Positions 1,944 to 36,960 of a stretch of 64,000 nucleotides of DNA are shown here, one piece after another (within the stretch, counting starts at the first letter, position 1; the number at the start of each line of letters is the position of its first letter). The DNA comes from Taibaiella lutea. GTDB lineage: Bacteria; Bacteroidota; Bacteroidia; Chitinophagales; Chitinophagaceae. The stretch is taken from assembly GCF_008629695.1 (NCBI RefSeq), contig NZ_VWSH01000001.1, positions 771,990 to 835,989 of the forward strand, read 5' to 3'. The notes under the pieces are model-generated. The model did not search any database. It saw nothing but the letters and a program-made list of their open reading frames with translations, and was not told the origin of the DNA. A program made the translations under genes and the position numbers.

Positions 1944-3137
1944 TTATACCAATTCGTAAATAATAGCAGCGCCCTGCCCTACTCCGATACACATGGTAGC
2001 TAAACCATAACGTACATTACGGCGTTTCATTTCATGCAATAATGTAGCCGAAATACGCGCACCGCTACAACCCAACGGATGACCGATGGCAATAGCGCCA
2101 CCGTTTACGTTCACTATCTCAGGATTGATTTTTAAGTCCTGCATTACTGCCAATGACTGCGATGCAAATGCTTCGTTTAGTTCTGCAAGGCCAATATCCT
2201 CAATCGTCAAGCCTGCGCGCTGCAATGCCTTCTCCGTTGCAGGTACAGGCCCGATACCCATAATAGAAGGATCGACTCCGGCAATAGCACGGCTGACAAT
2301 TTTTGCAATCGGTTTTAGGTTATATTTTTTTACTGCATCTTCAGAAGCTAATAATAGTGCTGCTGCACCATCGTTAATACCACTGCTGTTACCTGCCGTA
2401 ACAGTACCGTCTTTAATAAAAGCGGGTTTTAATTCTGCAAGCTTATCTAATGGAGACATACGCGGATGCTCGTCTTTGTCGAAGACAGTAGTTTTTCCTT
2501 TTCCAAGTTCGATGGTTACCGGCACCAATTCATCTGCAAATTTACCTGCTTCATGAGCTTTCTGATATTTATCCTGGCTTTCAAAGGCAAACTGGTCTTG
2601 TGCTTCGCGGCTTATATTCCATTGTTTAGCTACATTTTCCGCTGTTTCACCCATAGTATATGGATGATATAATGCAGATAATTTAGGATTGATAAAACGC
2701 CAGCCCATAGTAGTATCAAACATTTCCTGCGAACGGCCGAAAGGTTTATCAGATTTACCCATTACAAAAGGCGCACGGGTCATGCTTTCCACGCCACCTG
2801 CTATAAATATTTCACCTTCTCCGCACTGAATAGCACGACTTGCATCCATGATAGCCTGTAAACCTGATGCGCACAAACGGTTAACAGTATTGCCACCAAC
2901 AGTAATAGGTAATCCGGCCAACAATGCAGACATGCGCGCTACATCGCGGTTATCTTCGCCCGCCTGATTAGCAGCTCCGGCAATCACATCTTCAATAGCA
3001 TTTACATCTAATCCGGGATTTCTTTCCACCAGAGATTTAATAACATGCGCTAACATATCATCAGGACGGACACTGCTCAAAGTACCGCCATACTTACCTA
3101 TCGGCGTACGTACGGCATCTATTACATATACGGACAT
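1944..3137 (-). CDS. pcaF: Acetyl-CoA C-acyltransferase, 3-oxoadipyl-CoA thiolase type
   Basis: A full-length 397-residue thiolase II. It cleaves 3-ketoacyl-CoA with CoA, or condenses acetyl-CoA in reverse. The nucleophile Cys89 is in NRLCASG, the catalytic His353 in GHPLG and the second Cys383 in CIGVGQG, so the active site is intact. The N-terminal run VRPDD, the ANQAGEDNRDVARM block and DTTMGWRF are more like PcaF/PaaJ (3-oxoadipyl-CoA thiolase) than FadA. No other aromatic-degradation or beta-oxidation gene is adjacent, so the substrate is uncertain. It is a single gene with its own terminator, and its upstream region holds the 21-bp array at 3268-3519. Confidence 0.88.
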   Translation of the reverse strand: MSVYVIDAVRTPIGKYGGTLSSVRPDDMLAHVIKSLVERNPGLDVNAIEDVIAGAANQAGEDNRDVARMSALLAGLPITVGGNTVNRLCASGLQAIMDASRAIQCGEGEIFIAGGVESMTRAPFVMGKSDKPFGRSQEMFDTTMGWRFINPKLSALYHPYTMGETAENVAKQWNISREAQDQFAFESQDKYQKAHEAGKFADELVPVTIELGKGKTTVFDKDEHPRMSPLDKLAELKPAFIKDGTVTAGNSSGINDGAAALLLASEDAVKKYNLKPIAKIVSRAIAGVDPSIMGIGPVPATEKALQRAGLTIEDIGLAELNEAFASQSLAVMQDLKINPEIVNVNGGAIAIGHPLGCSGARISATLLHEMKRRNVRYGLATMCIGVGQGAAIIYELV

Positions 3138-3267
3138 TGGAAATTGAGAATTTAATATTAAAGGTTTGATTTTTAAGGCTGTAAAATTAAGAATTTAATA
3201 GGAGAATGGCTAAATCTGCCATATGTTTTGATTTGAGGCAAGTCTTCTCCGAACATTTTTCTAACCA

Positions 3268-3519
3268 CAGTTTTGATGTATTAGCCGGAAGGCTGAATGT
3301 ATAACATGAAAGTTTGAATGTATTCCATAAAGGTTTGAATGTGTTATATTGAAGTTTCCATCTATCAAAATGAAGCTTTTGTGTATAACACTAAAGTCGG
3401 CATATATCATATTACTGTCTTAATGTATGATACTAAAGCTTGCATGTGTTACAGTAAAGTCTCAATGTATTAAAGTAAAGGCCGGATGTATTACATGGAA
3501 GGCTGCATTTATTACTTTT
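3268..3519. repeat. Array I: 12 diverged tandem units of exactly 21 bp
   Basis: Units start at 3268, 3289, 3310, 3331, 3352, 3373, 3394, 3415, 3436, 3457, 3478 and 3499, with no insertion or deletion. The rough pattern is AAGKYTG-N-ATGTATTACA plus three variable bases. Individual units differ at many positions, yet the period never slips. The array occupies the space upstream of the thiolase gene and downstream of the DUF4468 gene. The rest of 3138-3614 has only the hairpin at 3561-3593 and no gene that I can see. Confidence 0.85.
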
Positions 3520-3560
3520 TTGAGATTTAACGAGGCTAAAATTCAAAGTTTATAGCAAAA

Positions 3561-3614: not shown

Positions 3615-4166
3615 TTACCAATCGTCTTTCTTGGCTCCGCCCTTAATATTATTTTCTAAATCAATGGATAAAGCCAAAAGAGATTTATTTACTTTTTCAA
3701 TTACACTTGAATTATACTTTGCACCTCTACCCGGGAACATTTTAGTTCCGTTATAAGCTACAGGAGGATCAATAGGAAAATTATTAGATTTCACCATAAG
3801 ATTATCAAAACGAAACTTATATTTTCCATCCTTAAAAGAAAGTTTAATCTTAAAATTTACATAATCGCCGGGCGCACTTTTAAATTTCTCTAATACAATA
3901 GTAGGAGAGTTAAATATGATGAATTCTTTTTCATCAAATCCGGCACTATTATCTTCTGTTTTAAAGGTTGAAAGAACCCATTGTTTCGCCCTCTTAAACA
4001 TTTCTTCTTTTGTAACTCCTTCTACAGGAACAATCCCTTCATAATAATAATTGGTAGCATTATCGTCTGATACAAGAACTGTTTTTACTTCTTCATCTTT
4101 ATCCTGTGCCTTTATGTTTGGCGTAGCAAAGAATAAAGCTGTTGCAATCAATAAAACTCTTTTCAT
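3615..4166 (-). CDS. DUF4468 domain-containing secreted protein
   Basis: 183 residues with a cleavable signal peptide (ATALFFATPNIKAQ). The mature part fits DUF4468, described as having a TBP-like fold: YYYEGIVPVEGVTKEEMFKRA at the start, a W-V-L-S-T-F segment, then FKIKLSFKDGKYKFRFDNL. These are small periplasmic or cell-surface proteins of unknown role found widely in Bacteroidota. It stands alone between two nearly identical hairpins. Nothing in the sequence indicates a catalytic function. Confidence 0.75.
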   Translation of the reverse strand: MKRVLLIATALFFATPNIKAQDKDEEVKTVLVSDDNATNYYYEGIVPVEGVTKEEMFKRAKQWVLSTFKTEDNSAGFDEKEFIIFNSPTIVLEKFKSAPGDYVNFKIKLSFKDGKYKFRFDNLMVKSNNFPIDPPVAYNGTKMFPGRGAKYNSSVIEKVNKSLLALSIDLENNIKGGAKKDDW

Positions 4167-32228: not shown

Positions 32229-33300
32229 CCGTTTTTGGTAAAAGTTTATCCAGCATCTCCACCGCAGCCGACTGCACCTCTTCTACAAAAGGGCGCAAGT
32301 CTTTGTTGTATGCCTCAAAAGCCAATTCAAAATCCCCGTTGTGTTTTTCAAACGCATCAGCCAATGCCGTAGCGCCTATGATAGCCAGGGAACCGCCCAT
32401 ACCCGCTGCCGGCGAAGCACAATAACCCGCATCACCTACCAGCGCCACCCTGCCCTTTGTCCACGACGGCATTTTTATCTGACAAAATTTATCGAAGTAA
32501 AACGATTTGGATTGCAGCAATTCTTTTTGAAGTTCGGCAGCTCTCCAGCCTACGCCCTCAAACTGTGCTGCAATGATTGCTTTATGCTCCTCCTGGTTAC
32601 GGAAATCATAAGCAATTTCTTTTTCCGGCCGGAAAGTGAAAATAATATCCGTTTTATGATTATACGCATATAGCGCAACCCCTTTATCAGGCTCCGCATA
32701 CATTTGGTAAGTACCCTCTTCCACCAGCAGTTTATTGACAATAGCAATGGAAAAATATTGCCCCAGGAAATGATTGTATTCCGATTCGTGCCCGAACCAT
32801 AATTTTCTTACTGCCGAATGTATGCCATCGCAACCGAACACAAGTTCAAACCGGCTCTGAGCACCATCCTTAAAAGTAACCGCTACAAAATCCTCCCTTT
32901 CTTCCAGAGATTGAATGCTGTTATGGAAGACAAAATCAACATCTTCTTTCAGCAGGTCAAACAGCATATTCAGCAAAACATCTCTTTCTATTTCAAATTC
33001 ATCATCCGGCAATGATTCCCCCGGTTGTTTAAATATTACAGCATGTTCCGTAACATCATCGGCATTTTTGAACTCCCACTTCTCCGGCCCTATTCTGTTT
33101 GATTTTATTTGTTCAAAAAGCCCCATACGCTTTACAATATCAACCGTACGGTCTTTTATATCTACAGGTGTACCGCCCATTTTAAGATGACTGCCTATCT
33201 CTACCACCGTCACCTTATAACCCATCTTGTTCATCCAGTAAGCAGTCGTCAATCCTGCAAAACTTGCACCCGACACAAGTACTCTTTTATTTTGCTCCAT
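32185..33300 (-). CDS. FAD-dependent monooxygenase, TetX-like
   Basis: 371 residues of the PHBH-type flavoprotein hydroxylase fold. The N-terminal FAD fingerprint is GASFAGLTTAYWMNKMGYKVTVVE (GxGxxG region with A at the third position), the DG motif CDGIHSAVRKLWF, and the GD motif GDAGYCASPAAGMGGSLAI. This last and the length are reminiscent of TetX and related antibiotic- or aromatic-modifying enzymes, but the substrate cannot be read from the sequence. It sits convergent with the SRPBCC gene and downstream of the AraC regulator gene on the same strand, 81 bp after it. Confidence 0.85.
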   Translation of the reverse strand: MEQNKRVLVSGASFAGLTTAYWMNKMGYKVTVVEIGSHLKMGGTPVDIKDRTVDIVKRMGLFEQIKSNRIGPEKWEFKNADDVTEHAVIFKQPGESLPDDEFEIERDVLLNMLFDLLKEDVDFVFHNSIQSLEEREDFVAVTFKDGAQSRFELVFGCDGIHSAVRKLWFGHESEYNHFLGQYFSIAIVNKLLVEEGTYQMYAEPDKGVALYAYNHKTDIIFTFRPEKEIAYDFRNQEEHKAIIAAQFEGVGWRAAELQKELLQSKSFYFDKFCQIKMPSWTKGRVALVGDAGYCASPAAGMGGSLAIIGATALADAFEKHNGDFELAFEAYNKDLRPFVEEVQSAAVEMLDKLLPKTEEEVRWRNKHGFSM

Positions 33301-33381
33301 TATTATTGATTAATTAATTCAGGACACAAAATTCCGCTCTGAAATCATTTCAGAAAATAAACGGACACAGTAAGTATTGGA

Positions 33382-34254
33382 CTAATCGTGGTTTTTGCTT
33401 CGGAAAGACAATGCGGACATGCCTGTAGCCTTGGCAAACATCCGTGTAAAATAAGGGTAATCCACATAACCCAATTCAAAAGCTATCTCCTTAACCGATT
33501 TGTCGGTATGATGCAGCAAACGCTTTGCTTCCAGAATGATTCTATCCTGAATGTTTTGTGAAACCGAAAAGCCCGTAGCATTTCTGATACATTCATTCAG
33601 ATAAGGGGTGGAAATATTCAGCAGCCCCGCATATTCACCCGGTCGCTTGATAGTGCAATAATTTTTTTCTAATAATTGCCTGAACCCCTTTGCAACTATT
33701 TCAAATCTTGAAAGATGGCTTTCCGGCTTATGCTGATTTAGAAACTGCGAAATCAGAAAAGCAACCAAAGTATTGCAACTATCCTTTAATAGCGGGCGAT
33801 GCAGTTTGTTGTTTTTTTGTACTGAAAAATGTAAGCATAGCGAAAAAATAGCGGCAACGGTGGAACTGGCTTCCTTTGTTAAAAGCAATGGCTTAGCAGG
33901 AGCAATCTCTTCCAGAAATTTAAGATAATCGGGATTCAGGCTTTCATTTTTAATTGCCAGCGAACCAACAGTGATGTTTTTAAACTCTAGGATACGATGT
34001 ACTTGATTAGGGTGCATATAAACAACAGCAGGAGCCGTGATGATATATTTTTGAAAATCAATTTCAATAAGCACACTGCCCTTCTCAACTATATGAAATG
34101 TATAACCCTCATCCCGGTGTGATTGTGTTGATTGTTCATATTCCTCTGCCGATTTAAAATCCGTTTTCTTAATATGGATTCTATCAATAGAAATGCCCCC
34201 GCTGAAATCGTCAGACATTGTATTAACCGGTATATTTTTATTGTTTTTCGGCAT
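33382..34254 (-). CDS. AraC-family transcriptional regulator
   Basis: 290 residues from the ATG at 34254 (MPKNNKNIPVN); homologues of this type begin near K-N-I-P-V. The frame continues 36 codons upstream through a GC-rich palindrome, so that extension is probably not translated. An N-terminal cupin-like sensing domain is followed by two C-terminal helix-turn-helix motifs, including ISTPYLNECIRNATGFS and VKEIAFELGYVDYPYFTRMFAKATGMS. It probably regulates the downstream monooxygenase gene 81 bp away, or the repeat-flanked divergent genes. Confidence 0.88.
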   Translation of the reverse strand: MPKNNKNIPVNTMSDDFSGGISIDRIHIKKTDFKSAEEYEQSTQSHRDEGYTFHIVEKGSVLIEIDFQKYIITAPAVVYMHPNQVHRILEFKNITVGSLAIKNESLNPDYLKFLEEIAPAKPLLLTKEASSTVAAIFSLCLHFSVQKNNKLHRPLLKDSCNTLVAFLISQFLNQHKPESHLSRFEIVAKGFRQLLEKNYCTIKRPGEYAGLLNISTPYLNECIRNATGFSVSQNIQDRIILEAKRLLHHTDKSVKEIAFELGYVDYPYFTRMFAKATGMSALSFRSKNHD

Positions 34255-34300
34255 CAAAAAGCTAATCAGGATAGTAAGTAAAAGTATAACAAATAGTACT

Positions 34301-34340
34301 CGTCTCCGCAGAGTCCCTTTCAGGAGACTCTGCGGAGACG
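34301..34340. repeat. GC-rich palindrome in the AraC regulator leader
   Basis: Arms CGTCTCCGCAGAGTC (34301-34315) and its exact complement (34326-34340). It belongs to the GCAGCGTCTCC palindrome family at 30950 and 32144. In the transcript it would be a strong hairpin before the regulator's start codon. Confidence 0.75.
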
Positions 34341-34390
34341 AAAGCAACCAATAAACTCCCATAACCTTATCCGCAAATCACATAGCTTTC

Positions 34391-34810
34391 AATACAACTG
34401 CCTCTAACAATTAATAATCAGTCTCTTACAATCCCGCGAAACTATTCGAATTCCAATCGAACACCTCTTACATCTGTGCGAACCCCTCAAACATGTAATC
34501 AGTTTTAATATAATACAAATCGAAGCCCTCTGACACGAAATCAAACACGGCTGACATGAAATCAAAGACCGCTGACACAAAATCAAACGCGGCTGACACG
34601 AAATCAAACACGGCTGACACGAAATCAAACACCGCTGACACAAAATCAAAGACCTCCGGAGCAAAATCGAACACCATCGACAACAAAACAATGACCGCAT
34701 GCACCAAATCAGCAAATGCTGACAGAAAAACAAATGCTATCGACACAAAATCAAACACCACCATCACTGAAGCAAACACCCTATATACAAAATCGAACAC
34801 CGCTGAGTCA
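34391..34810. repeat. Array II: 20 tandem units of exactly 21 bp
   Basis: Strongest from 34517 to 34810, where 14 units follow AAATCAAACACCGCTGACA plus two bases; weaker but in-phase units extend back to 34391. No unit gains or loses a base over 420 bp, although sequence varies. Because 21 is divisible by three, both strands stay open and encode spurious heptad repeats (FDFVSAV, DTKSNTA). The gap 34255-34984 holds only this array and the palindrome at 34301. Confidence 0.9.
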
Positions 34811-34984
34811 AAGTAAATGCACAACATTTTTTCATCAACCCTCATAATAATTCATTCGAACATACGTTTTCAAATATAAATTACCCTGTGCGGTAATGTC
34901 ATAAAAAGGAAAACCAAAGCCAAAAAAGAGCCGCATTGTGAAAAGATGAAAATGCTTTTTTAGAAACTTAAAAAATTCCCGACA

Positions 34985-35698
34985 ATGACAAAACGTCAAG
35001 AAGATCAGCTGACCATGTGGACCGCAACAAATGCAGTATTGAAAAACTATGAGGAAAAATGGAAATCCATTGCTGCATTTGCAAACGCAGCCCATCTGTT
35101 CCGGAAAATAAGTCTGGAAGTAAATGCAGCAATAAGCACACAGCAACAGGACAATACCGGCATCACGCAAGGCAAGATAGCCATGCGAAGCAACCTGACC
35201 GAACAATGCAGGCAGATGGCCCTCAACATTGAATCTTATGCCTTCAACATAAAGGATTTTGCCCTCGAGCAACAATTCCATTTTACCCCTACTTATTTTG
35301 AAAGGCTCAGGGACAATGCCCTGCCCGTTGTGGCAGGCGCCATATTCCAAAAAGCATCCGACCTTAAAACCCAACTAAGCGATTATGGTGTAGGCGATGA
35401 AGAACTGAAAGAGCTGAAAACATTGATAGAAAAATACAAAGGCATGAATCCAGCTCCCAGACTGGCAAAGGGCGAAGTAAAACAAGCCACCGTCAATATT
35501 GCGGATAAGATAAATGAAGGCACGGAGCAGCTAAATCTGATGGATAAATTAGCGGGTAACTTCAGTAAAAAATCACCCGAATTTGTAAGCTCCTTCAGGA
35601 ACGCCCGCATCGTCATCAATAGGACCAGCAGCAAAAAGCTGAAGAAAGCTTCCGATACCACAGTTGTAAAACAAATAACCGCAGCCATCTACCGATAA
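34985..35698 (+). CDS. Hypothetical helical protein next to Array II
   Basis: 237 residues, almost entirely helical in character, with no signal or membrane segment; probably cytoplasmic. It has two alpha-rich lobes (MTKRQEDQLTMWTATNAV… and NIADKINEGTEQLNLMDKLAGNF) and a basic C-terminus (RTSSKKLKKASD). I have an uncertain memory of similar proteins of about 200-240 residues in other Bacteroidota, also of unknown function, so this may be a family. It begins 174 bp after the repeat array and 37 bp before the methyltransferase gene. Confidence 0.6.
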   Translation: MTKRQEDQLTMWTATNAVLKNYEEKWKSIAAFANAAHLFRKISLEVNAAISTQQQDNTGITQGKIAMRSNLTEQCRQMALNIESYAFNIKDFALEQQFHFTPTYFERLRDNALPVVAGAIFQKASDLKTQLSDYGVGDEELKELKTLIEKYKGMNPAPRLAKGEVKQATVNIADKINEGTEQLNLMDKLAGNFSKKSPEFVSSFRNARIVINRTSSKKLKKASDTTVVKQITAAIYR

Positions 35699-35734
35699 TT
35701 AAATAATTTCGTCTGCACAATCTAAACCGACAAC

Positions 35735-36358
35735 ATGAGCGACAACTGGACAGACAGATGGAACGACAGATACAGCAATGAAACATTTGCCTACGGCGAA
35801 CAGCCCAATAATTACCTGAAAGCACAACTGGAAAAGTTAGAGCCCGGGGCCATACTTTTCGCTGCGGAAGGAGAAGGACGAAATGCCGTTTTTGCTGCAA
35901 AGATCGGCTGGACAGCCGCTGCATTTGACATAAGCACTGAAGGCAAAAAGAAAGCCATGCAGCTTGCTGAAAGCAATAACGTCACAATCGACTATCAGGT
36001 AGGAGAACTACAGACATTGAATTACCAGCCAGGACAATTCGATGCCATCGCTTTGATATATGCGCATTTCCCCGCAGACATCAAATCACCTTATCACCAC
36101 ATACTTGACAAATATTTACGGAAAGGCGGCATCGTCATTTTTGAAGCATTCAGCAAAACACACCTTGATTACCTTGCTAAAAACGAAAAAGTAGGCGGCC
36201 CAAAAGAAATAGACATGCTGTTTTCCATTGAAGAAATAAAAGCCGATTTCCCTGATTACGAAATCCTTGAATTAACAGAGACCGAAATTGAATTAAGCGA
36301 AGGCGCATTCCACAACGGACAAGGTTCCGTAATCAGGTTCGTAGGAAAGAAGAAATAG
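35735..36358 (+). CDS. Class I SAM-dependent methyltransferase
   Basis: 207 residues. The SAM-binding region has [28 protein letters not shown], matching the ExGxGRN motif I of TehB-like enzymes, then [12 protein letters not shown]. Substrate unknown; related proteins detoxify tellurite or modify small molecules. Same strand as and 37 bp after the 237-residue gene, so probably co-transcribed. Confidence 0.85.
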
Positions 36359-36410
36359 ACCACTGACATAAAATGTCTTTGAATTATTTTTTTGTTGCCT
36401 GGAAAATAGC

Positions 36411-36960
36411 CGATGTACTATTCTATGCTCTTTTCTATGTTTAGCCTTTCATGATTTTGATTAAATCATTTTAATCAAAACATTTATAGTATGTCTGTTT
36501 TATAGAAAATAGCCGATGTACTATTCTATGTTCTTTTCGTATGCTTAGCCCGGGCGTGCGGTAGCTGCACAAATTCAGCGGAGCATTTGAATTTGTGGCG
36601 CCTTTTTTGTTTCTTTTTTGGCGAAGCAAAAAAGAAAAAGAATAAACATTGTATATCTTGCAACCGATATTATTAGCCTCTTCAGGATGTGATTAAATCA
36701 TTTCAATCATAGCATTTATAGTACCTCTGTTTTATAGAAAATAGCCGATGTCCCTATTCTATGTTCTTTTCGTATGCTTAACCCGGGCGTGCGGTAGCTG
36801 CACAAATTCAGCGGAGCAACTTTTCTCATGCGCACCATCTAAAATAAATAAATGCGCATATTTGAATTTGTGGCACCTTTTTTGTTTCTTTTTTGGCGAA
36901 GCAAAAAAGAAAAAGAATAAACATTGTATATCTTGCAACCGATATTATTAGCCTCTTCAG
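36411..36960. repeat. Imperfect triplication of a ~230-bp unit with nested hairpins
   Basis: Copy A is 36471-36684, copy B 36703-36960; an internally deleted third copy starts at 36411 (GAAAATAGCCGATG). Each full unit has a hairpin CACAAATTCA…TGAATTTGTG and an AT hairpin TTTCTTTTTT-GGCGAAGC-AAAAAAG. In copy B the first hairpin's loop has a 40-base insert containing TGCGCA repeats. Copy B ends three bases before the M28 peptidase ATG, so it likely contains that gene's promoter. No ORF in 36359-36963 is convincing. Confidence 0.8.

Follow-up and report, generated by a model that had tools for sequence, protein, structure and literature searches.

The closest described systems are repeats that lie beside, or are linked to, genes. 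Plasmid iterons, as in R6K and pSC101, are few in number, have one sequence, reside on replicons and are bound by Rep proteins of known fold. In the araBAD operator, I1 and I2 are two direct-repeat sites 21 bp apart with sub-sites one helical turn apart, and AraC-type factors bind such 21-bp direct repeats via two contacts one turn apart. REPINs are short palindromes, and RAYTs are transposase-like. Intergenic arrays of the heptamer TAACTGA have been described from Beggiatoaceae, Cyanobacteria and Bacteroidetes and are long noncoding direct repeats that often lie upstream of genes (PMC4679880).

Here we analyse a 21-bp repeat array, and the gene that follows it, in a 64,000-nucleotide stretch of the Taibaiella lutea genome (hereafter the window). 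The array is not a local oddity, being one of many that lie beside genes for several families of helical proteins in Bacteroidia. We found no earlier description of these two-turn arrays in the literature that we searched.

The array in the window

Autocorrelation, which had been proposed as a check in the initial annotation of this DNA, gives a period of exactly 21 bp: identity at lag 21 is 0.581 over positions 34391–34810, compared with 0.295 at lag 20 and 0.279 at lag 22, and 2,000 mononucleotide shuffles of the same segment yield a lag-21 mean of 0.299 (SD 0.022, maximum 0.381). Tandem Repeats Finder independently detects the array (34517–34711, plus shorter rows). The initial annotation had counted 20 strict 21-bp units; the strong and exact period stands, but only 14 consecutive units are clear, forming a plus-strand core at 34517–34814 whose consensus, AAATCAAACACCGCTGACACA, is given in the sense of the downstream gene. 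The 14 windows from 34517 to 34810 match this consensus in register at 14–21 of 21 positions, whereas the first six (34391–34516, plus strand) are weak, matching at 12, 10, 5, 15, 10 and 6 positions with an internal lag-21 identity of 0.410. These six are probably an old part of the array, because they can be aligned with the diverged 5′ block of same-type arrays in the same genome. No phase slip was detected in the 298-bp core, which carries 62 differences from its consensus; the claim that no base had been gained or lost is therefore limited to the core, as the weak windows cannot be judged in this respect. One frame on each strand is free of stops through most of the core (ORFs at 34556–34816, plus strand, 86 aa, and 34468–34845, minus strand, 125 aa), and since 21 is divisible by three, such frames may stay open by chance from unit to unit. 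Between array and gene lies a plus-strand leader (34815–34984), which is similar in a paralogous locus (L002) and in an orphan array (L130).

Several other features surround the array. A perfect 16-bp inverted repeat (TCGTCTCCGCAGAGTC ... GACTCTGCGGAGACGA, noted by eye) is located at 34300–34341, between an AraC-type gene and the array, and overlaps an ATG-started ORF (33382–34362) whose true start may be further inside. An Rfam scan of 33300–36500 gave three matches, none reaching its gathering score, and a sub-threshold match spans the hairpin at 34300–34341. On the other side, long direct repeats (CCGATGTACTATTCTATG... and CCCGGGCGTGCGGTAGCTGCACAAATTCAGCGGAGCA...) occupy noncoding DNA at 36370–36960, before a peptidase M28 gene (by eye). 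A second period-21 array, at about 3229–3555 and with no strand assigned, is flanked by an acetyl-CoA acetyltransferase-like gene (1944–3137, named by eye), whose 5′ end faces it, and by an ORF at 3615–4166, and no family A gene (see below) was found near it.

The adjoining gene, family A

The gene that follows the array (34985–35698, plus strand), a member of what we call family A, encodes a 237-aa helical protein without a Pfam match at E 0.001 and is one of five copies in the genome. Its predicted structure is all-helical (moderate confidence: mean pLDDT 78.6, pTM 0.44); the best Foldseek match of this model in the PDB has an E-value of 0.16, which is no convincing solved fold, and no DNA-binding fold was recognised in the predicted model. 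A sequence-profile search of the PDB with the window protein gave a best E-value of 0.0055, to part of a Cas10. The helical domain of the family passed no curated cut-off in Pfam, NCBIfam, PHROGs or PADLOC: its best score was 22.4 bits to NCBIfam PQLLE_fam, against a cut-off of 80, and its best E-values were 0.0018 in PHROGs and 0.0066 in PADLOC, both without cut-offs. The sole cut-off passed among the proteins scanned was that of a C-terminal CarboxypepD_reg match in one relative (L010; 32.7 bits, cut-off 32.3). A similar C-terminal domain in another (L014) falls below the cut-off. The match lists of the scanned relatives, which extend to E 1 or 0.1, contain no Rep domain, no transposase family scored above cut-off for the proteins scanned, and no signal peptide was noticed by eye in L010, L014 or L265. 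Family A is not generally basic, with a median pI of 6.63 (35% above 8.5 and 37% below 6); the window protein has a pI of 9.39.

Four of the five copies in the genome, including that of the window, have a period-21 array just upstream, the exception being L003. Unit sequences differ among these copies except at L001 and L002, which have one common type and whose proteins are 66% identical. A relative was found in Taibaiella helva, and the genome G003 belongs to the window's genus; among viral contigs there was no confirmed relative of the window protein.

Arrays at family A loci across Bacteroidia

Family A was found in 38 of 294 genomes of the window's taxonomic family and in 41 of 295 genomes of the class; a genome has up to nine matches, a figure that is a floor in that about nine candidates were scored per genome. 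The 106 family A loci considered here (38 + 40 + 28) are those delivered or the best-listed places and hence a nonrandom sample; they are also related to one another, and one-per-genome versions of the results are given where made. An upstream array, defined by a segment score of at least 28 at lag 21 or lag 42 within 1,200 bp upstream, was found at 32/38, 31/40 and 18/28 of these loci, or 81 of 106 in total, whereas 16 other lags between 15 and 35 gave arrays at 0–2 of 100 rescanned loci (the rescan left out six misses of the first 38-locus set). The arrays have a median length of 276 bp and end a median of 117 bp before the start codon. The initial annotation had asked whether the signal recurs near homologues of the 34985 gene; it does, with a period of 21 or 42 bp and mostly unrelated unit sequences, and tandem direct repeats of about two helical turns adjoin family A genes, an iteron-like arrangement. 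Among the 25 of 106 loci that fail the upstream rule, at least five (L011, L106, L110, L118, L121) have an array downstream instead (identity 0.58–0.72; lag 21, 41 or 42), and the failures include two loci with less than 300 bp of upstream DNA available (L186, L189) and one with a wrong ORF call (L074).

The annotated adjacency to an AraC regulator holds for the window, where the gene does adjoin the array, but looks incidental: at ten other family A loci, judged by eye from the first 70 residues of each ORF, we saw no conserved neighbour genes and no conserved AraC-like neighbour in particular, and the AraC-type gene was rejected as a partner on this ground.

Conservation inside the repeat unit

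Coding DNA is expected to be conserved with a period of 3, single-stranded RNA without a 10.5-bp period, and double-stranded DNA contacted on one face in columns one turn apart. Within the units of the 81 arrays, the conservation spectrum peaks at 10.5 bp (share 0.240, compared with 0.100 for permuted columns), and nulls permuted in blocks of 3–4 columns place 13–14% of power there (z 8.4–8.7). This harmonic is the largest of ten in 39 of the 81 arrays. The signal holds with one array per genome (z 10.1, 48 arrays) and outside the window's family (z 4.7, 18 arrays), is weaker beside genes of families D, E and F (z 2.4, 13 arrays) and B (z 2.6, 10 arrays), which are described below, and beside no surveyed family gene (z 3.3, 13 arrays), and is gone when arrays are read at the wrong period of 20 (z 1.0). 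The window array alone is without it (share 0.037), having its power at 21 bp instead (0.288). Because conservation in the units oscillates with 10.5 bp, the arrays are probably read as double-stranded DNA from one face, and the pattern suggests that something grips the DNA along one side. That the two-turn period matters, as had been supposed, is borne out both by the 21- or 42-bp period common to unrelated units and by this 10.5-bp conservation within them.

The two conserved patches match a weak common motif, in gene sense TCTGACA-N7-AAAT in outline. When 48 arrays, one per genome, are aligned circularly, the weak motif reads TCTnACA then GAAAT, again in gene sense and in outline, with an information content of 3.41 bits compared with 2.62 ± 0.05 in ten column-permuted controls (an earlier motif set omitted L079 and L085 of 32 arrays). 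The motif lies on the same strand in 36 of these 48 arrays, where controls have a mean of 0.58 and a maximum of 0.65, an excess for which p is 0.01 relative to that mean and 0.09 relative to that maximum. Arrays beside proteins less than 30% identical likewise have an excess of same-strand likeness (0.0129, where 2,000 random strand flips reach at most 0.0074). An AraC-type arrangement of 21-bp repeats with two sub-sites one turn apart is thus found in the array set, not in the window array alone.

Beyond this motif, most unit sequences are unrelated once the proteins are less than about 50% identical, and near-identical proteins may have unlike arrays (91% protein identity with an array similarity of 0.49, and 73% with 0.24); arrays turn over faster than proteins. 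For proteins below 20% identical, array similarity is 0.271 within a genome (21 pairs) and 0.278 between genomes (1,611 pairs). Since sharing a genome makes arrays no more alike, a single genome-wide sequence-specific reader was rejected as unsupported.

Phase, curvature, folding and coding capacity

The initial annotation took the fixed phase as a sign of selection on spacing. Slips are rare over the arrays (9, set against 8,184 differences, in a scan that recovered 96 of 113 planted indels), but short-period control arrays in the same scan are nearly as clean (4 slips and 1,294 differences; Fisher p 0.09). Arrays without a family gene have 1 slip and 802 differences (eight 21-bp arrays) and 3 slips and 166 differences (two 22-bp arrays). 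Since controls and unlinked arrays are similarly slip-poor, phase constancy was set aside as proof of selection. Nor was the suggestion of bent DNA supported for family A arrays as a set, their curvature as predicted from wedge parameters being no greater than that of column-permuted arrays (mean z 0.12 over 80 arrays); the window array is below its control (47 compared with 73 degrees per 105 bp). Single curved arrays do exist (L004, 155 compared with 80; L005, 128 compared with 68).

RNA hairpins are not supported as a general feature of family A: across the 81 arrays the folding excess over controls is small (mean z −0.40 and −0.27; −0.4 for the window array), and about 10% of the arrays fold at z below −2 on each strand. 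A coding array is unlikely for the class, and we take the arrays to be noncoding, because in 21 of 32 every one of the six frames is interrupted by stops; the other 11, including the window's with its one open frame per strand, have a stop-free frame within the array. A heptamer origin was rejected as well, there being no 7-bp sub-period over the 81 arrays (z 0.1). The arrays as a set are not palindromic (0.373 compared with 0.368).

Promoters, dispersal and census

The Bacteroidota-type promoter consists of TTG, 17–23 bp and TANNTTTG. In the stretch that starts with the final 45 bp of the array and runs to the gene, exact two-part matches occur at 7 of 81 loci (0.8 in mononucleotide shuffles) and matches with up to one mismatch at 29 of 81 (12.6 shuffled); the −7 element without the TTG is in small excess (13 of 81 compared with 8.2 for exact matches, 60 compared with 55.0 with mismatch). 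This enrichment is a group result for family A leaders and not individual to the window leader.

The window's array type is found at six places in the genome, two with a gene (the window and L002) and four without (L015, L130, L131, L132), among which L130 has kept the leader. Similarly, the array type of L004 occurs at three places, one of them with a gene. Same-type copies are alike in block order and ends, with internal gaps mostly of 21 or 63 columns plus single bases, and their matches are 66–90% identical, with no recent identical set.

A census of noncoding arrays of true period 21 or 22 covered 2,184 kb sampled from 17 genomes, with heptamer-like arrays excluded. It found nine in 624 kb of this genome (the target array included), six in 400 kb of five A-rich genomes, two in 380 kb of five genomes with few family A genes and none in the 780 kb from six genomes in which family A had no match; other true periods from 10 to 39 accounted for four arrays, 18 with a shorter sub-period having been dropped. 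The 16 non-target arrays in 1,404 kb of the 11 genomes with family A compare with none in 780 kb of the six without (p 0.0009 by bases; 4/11 vs 0/6 and p 0.24 by genomes), a link between arrays and family A genomes that is strong by bases and weak by genomes and in which some of the 16 arrays adjoin B, D, E or F genes. Among the six A-free genomes, the status of two (G024, G057) comes from one search, these being unnamed in the later A and B search listings, and only G006 is named in the E and F search listings. No hidden family A genes were found by profile beside other arrays in the stretches searched. We also note heptamer-type (7-bp) arrays in genomes without a family A match (L208, L211, L220, L221, L223, L248), which mimic a 21-bp lag signal.

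Other helical families with arrays

Family B, of 165–170 aa, was found via an array of the window's own genome. At an identity of at least 0.55, a 21- or 22-bp array lies directly 3′ of the gene at 13 of 29 B loci, with a 22-bp unit in 3 of the 13, and none lies on the upstream side of the 29; these loci include four with less than 350 bp of downstream DNA and one with a wrong ORF call (L159). Compared with column-permuted controls, B arrays have an excess of folding (mean z −3.4 in gene sense, with 8 of 13 below −2), and one B protein is acidic (pI 4.32). Palindromic by tendency, B arrays may differ in kind from those of family A, and because they lie 3′ of the gene and tend to form palindromes, a single role for all arrays is doubtful. 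At two B loci (L055 and L056, equivalent to L148 and L166), the B gene and its 22- or 21-bp array are followed by a gene of about 113–129 aa; the products of these third genes are 35% identical to each other and have, by eye, a helix-turn-helix look and a coiled-coil-like tail. Two 22-bp arrays without a linked family gene (L025, 3931–4562; L039, 6759–6973) have a common palindromic AGGTNNTACCT core, again by eye, and that of L025 contains three phase slips.

Three further ORFs, D, E and F, were reached via arrays in two A-rich genomes, and E and F occur in 19 and 9 of 198 class genomes, respectively. In a chosen sample (11 of 62 listed places for E and F, and one locus for D), an array of at least 0.55 identity adjoins E on either side at 6 of 7 loci, the seventh having 0.54, and lies upstream of F at 4 of 4. 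The D protein (L265) has an apparent beta domain after its helices, by eye.

Proposed function and alternatives

It is plausible, and in our judgement about an even call on these sequences, that the array serves as a platform of double-stranded DNA to which protein binds and that it forms a cassette with the adjoining helical-protein gene. Each unit would then present two contact patches one turn apart and, with units recurring every two turns, an array would offer about 9–20 same-facing sites, possibly filled cooperatively by a row of protein molecules. At family A loci, such a row would stand just upstream of the gene's promoter, where it might control the gene or be the place at which the gene product assembles. 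The readers probably differ from array to array, because the arrays in one genome have unrelated sequences, and the product of the adjacent gene would be the simplest candidate, with a DNA-binding partner encoded elsewhere the next. Private array sequences favour a private reader and hence the neighbour's product, whereas the charge of the proteins, and the fact that near-identical ones can adjoin dissimilar arrays, point to a factor that demands little of the sequence or to a partner; the latter observation also speaks against strict recognition by the encoded protein. Arrays of one type without a gene look as if cassettes had been copied and the gene lost or left behind. Considerably more speculative, and to us rather doubtful, is an extension in which Bacteroidia would hold a guild of helical families, each gene with a two-turn array of private sequence, that would act as orthogonal address tags on one chromosome: each pair would build a one-faced protein row on its own arrays only, organising DNA or controlling genes, and the orphan arrays would be remote docking sites.

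Alternatively, the arrays might be upstream operators that a host DNA-binding protein reads through paired contacts, two at each site and one turn apart, the helical proteins being no more than regulated cargo. We consider this possible, though distinctly short of an even chance. It accounts for the weak common motif lying mostly on one strand, for conserved patches one turn apart, for the two-part promoter matches between array and gene and for a family of proteins that are not generally basic, but one sequence-specific reader misfits arrays that are no more alike within a genome than between genomes, arrays are on the 3′ side of the gene in family B and at some A and E loci, and inspection by eye gave no conserved regulator among the neighbours. 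That the arrays are instead elements that move or are copied passively, in the manner of short non-autonomous repeats, with the helical protein as mobiliser or passenger, seems unlikely. The gene-less copies of the window and L004 types, their common block order and ends, and the leader left without a gene at L130 would all be natural for such elements; their diverged copy matches and the transposase result for the proteins scanned would not, and mobility does not predict conservation with a 10.5-bp period.

We think it very unlikely that these are ordinary minisatellites, in which a bias of local duplication would yield functionless tandem units of 21–22 bp. Other short-period arrays keep phase too, and faster turnover of arrays than of proteins would be expected of minisatellites, but other true periods of 10–39 bp are nearly absent from the census once the sub-periodic arrays are dropped, the arrays track particular gene families on a side that is mostly fixed for A, B and F, and their conservation within the unit follows the helical period of DNA; the 780 kb sampled from genomes without a family A match, taken as a check on this reading, contained no 21-bp arrays. 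Least credible of all, and close to dismissal in our view, is an array that functions at the RNA level or codes for a protein of heptad repeats (seven codons making up 21 bases). The open frames of the window array and of ten more, the minority of well-folding A arrays and the folding of the 13 B arrays lend it something, against which stand the stops in all six frames of most A arrays, the small folding excess of the A set and a conservation period of 10.5 rather than 3.

If a protein-binding platform is the right reading, a widespread DNA element, undescribed as far as we found, would be tied to several uncharacterised gene families, with a repeat length kept across Bacteroidia, a sequence free to change and unit conservation that follows the DNA helix. 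Such a system would offer a testable example of DNA that is read through its spacing and face besides its sequence, would open a first way into several functionally uncharacterised protein families and would supply natural arrays of about 9–20 same-face sites in many different sequences.

Comparison with known systems

The arrays resemble the TAACTGA heptamer arrays in being long noncoding direct repeats that are often upstream of genes and occur in Bacteroidetes too, and differ from them in that those have a period of 7 and one heptamer (PMC4679880). Family A arrays are without a 7-bp sub-period and have unrelated sequences. As in REPIN–RAYT systems, there is a gene with a linked repeat and there are dispersed gene-less copies of that repeat, but family A arrays are not palindromic and the proteins scanned match no transposase family above cut-off. 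Like the I1 and I2 operators of araBAD, they consist of direct repeats with a 21-bp spacing, each with a pair of sub-sites separated by one turn, and are placed upstream of a promoter; here, however, there are about 14 sites rather than two, no AraC gene was seen as a conserved neighbour of family A, and B arrays lie 3′ of the gene. In contrast to plasmid iterons, the arrays occur on large chromosomal contigs, several to many per genome, with unrelated sequences and beside proteins in which no Rep domain was recognised. Like iterons, they are tandem direct repeats of about two helical turns, bound (here putatively) on one face and lying beside the gene of what would be their binding protein.
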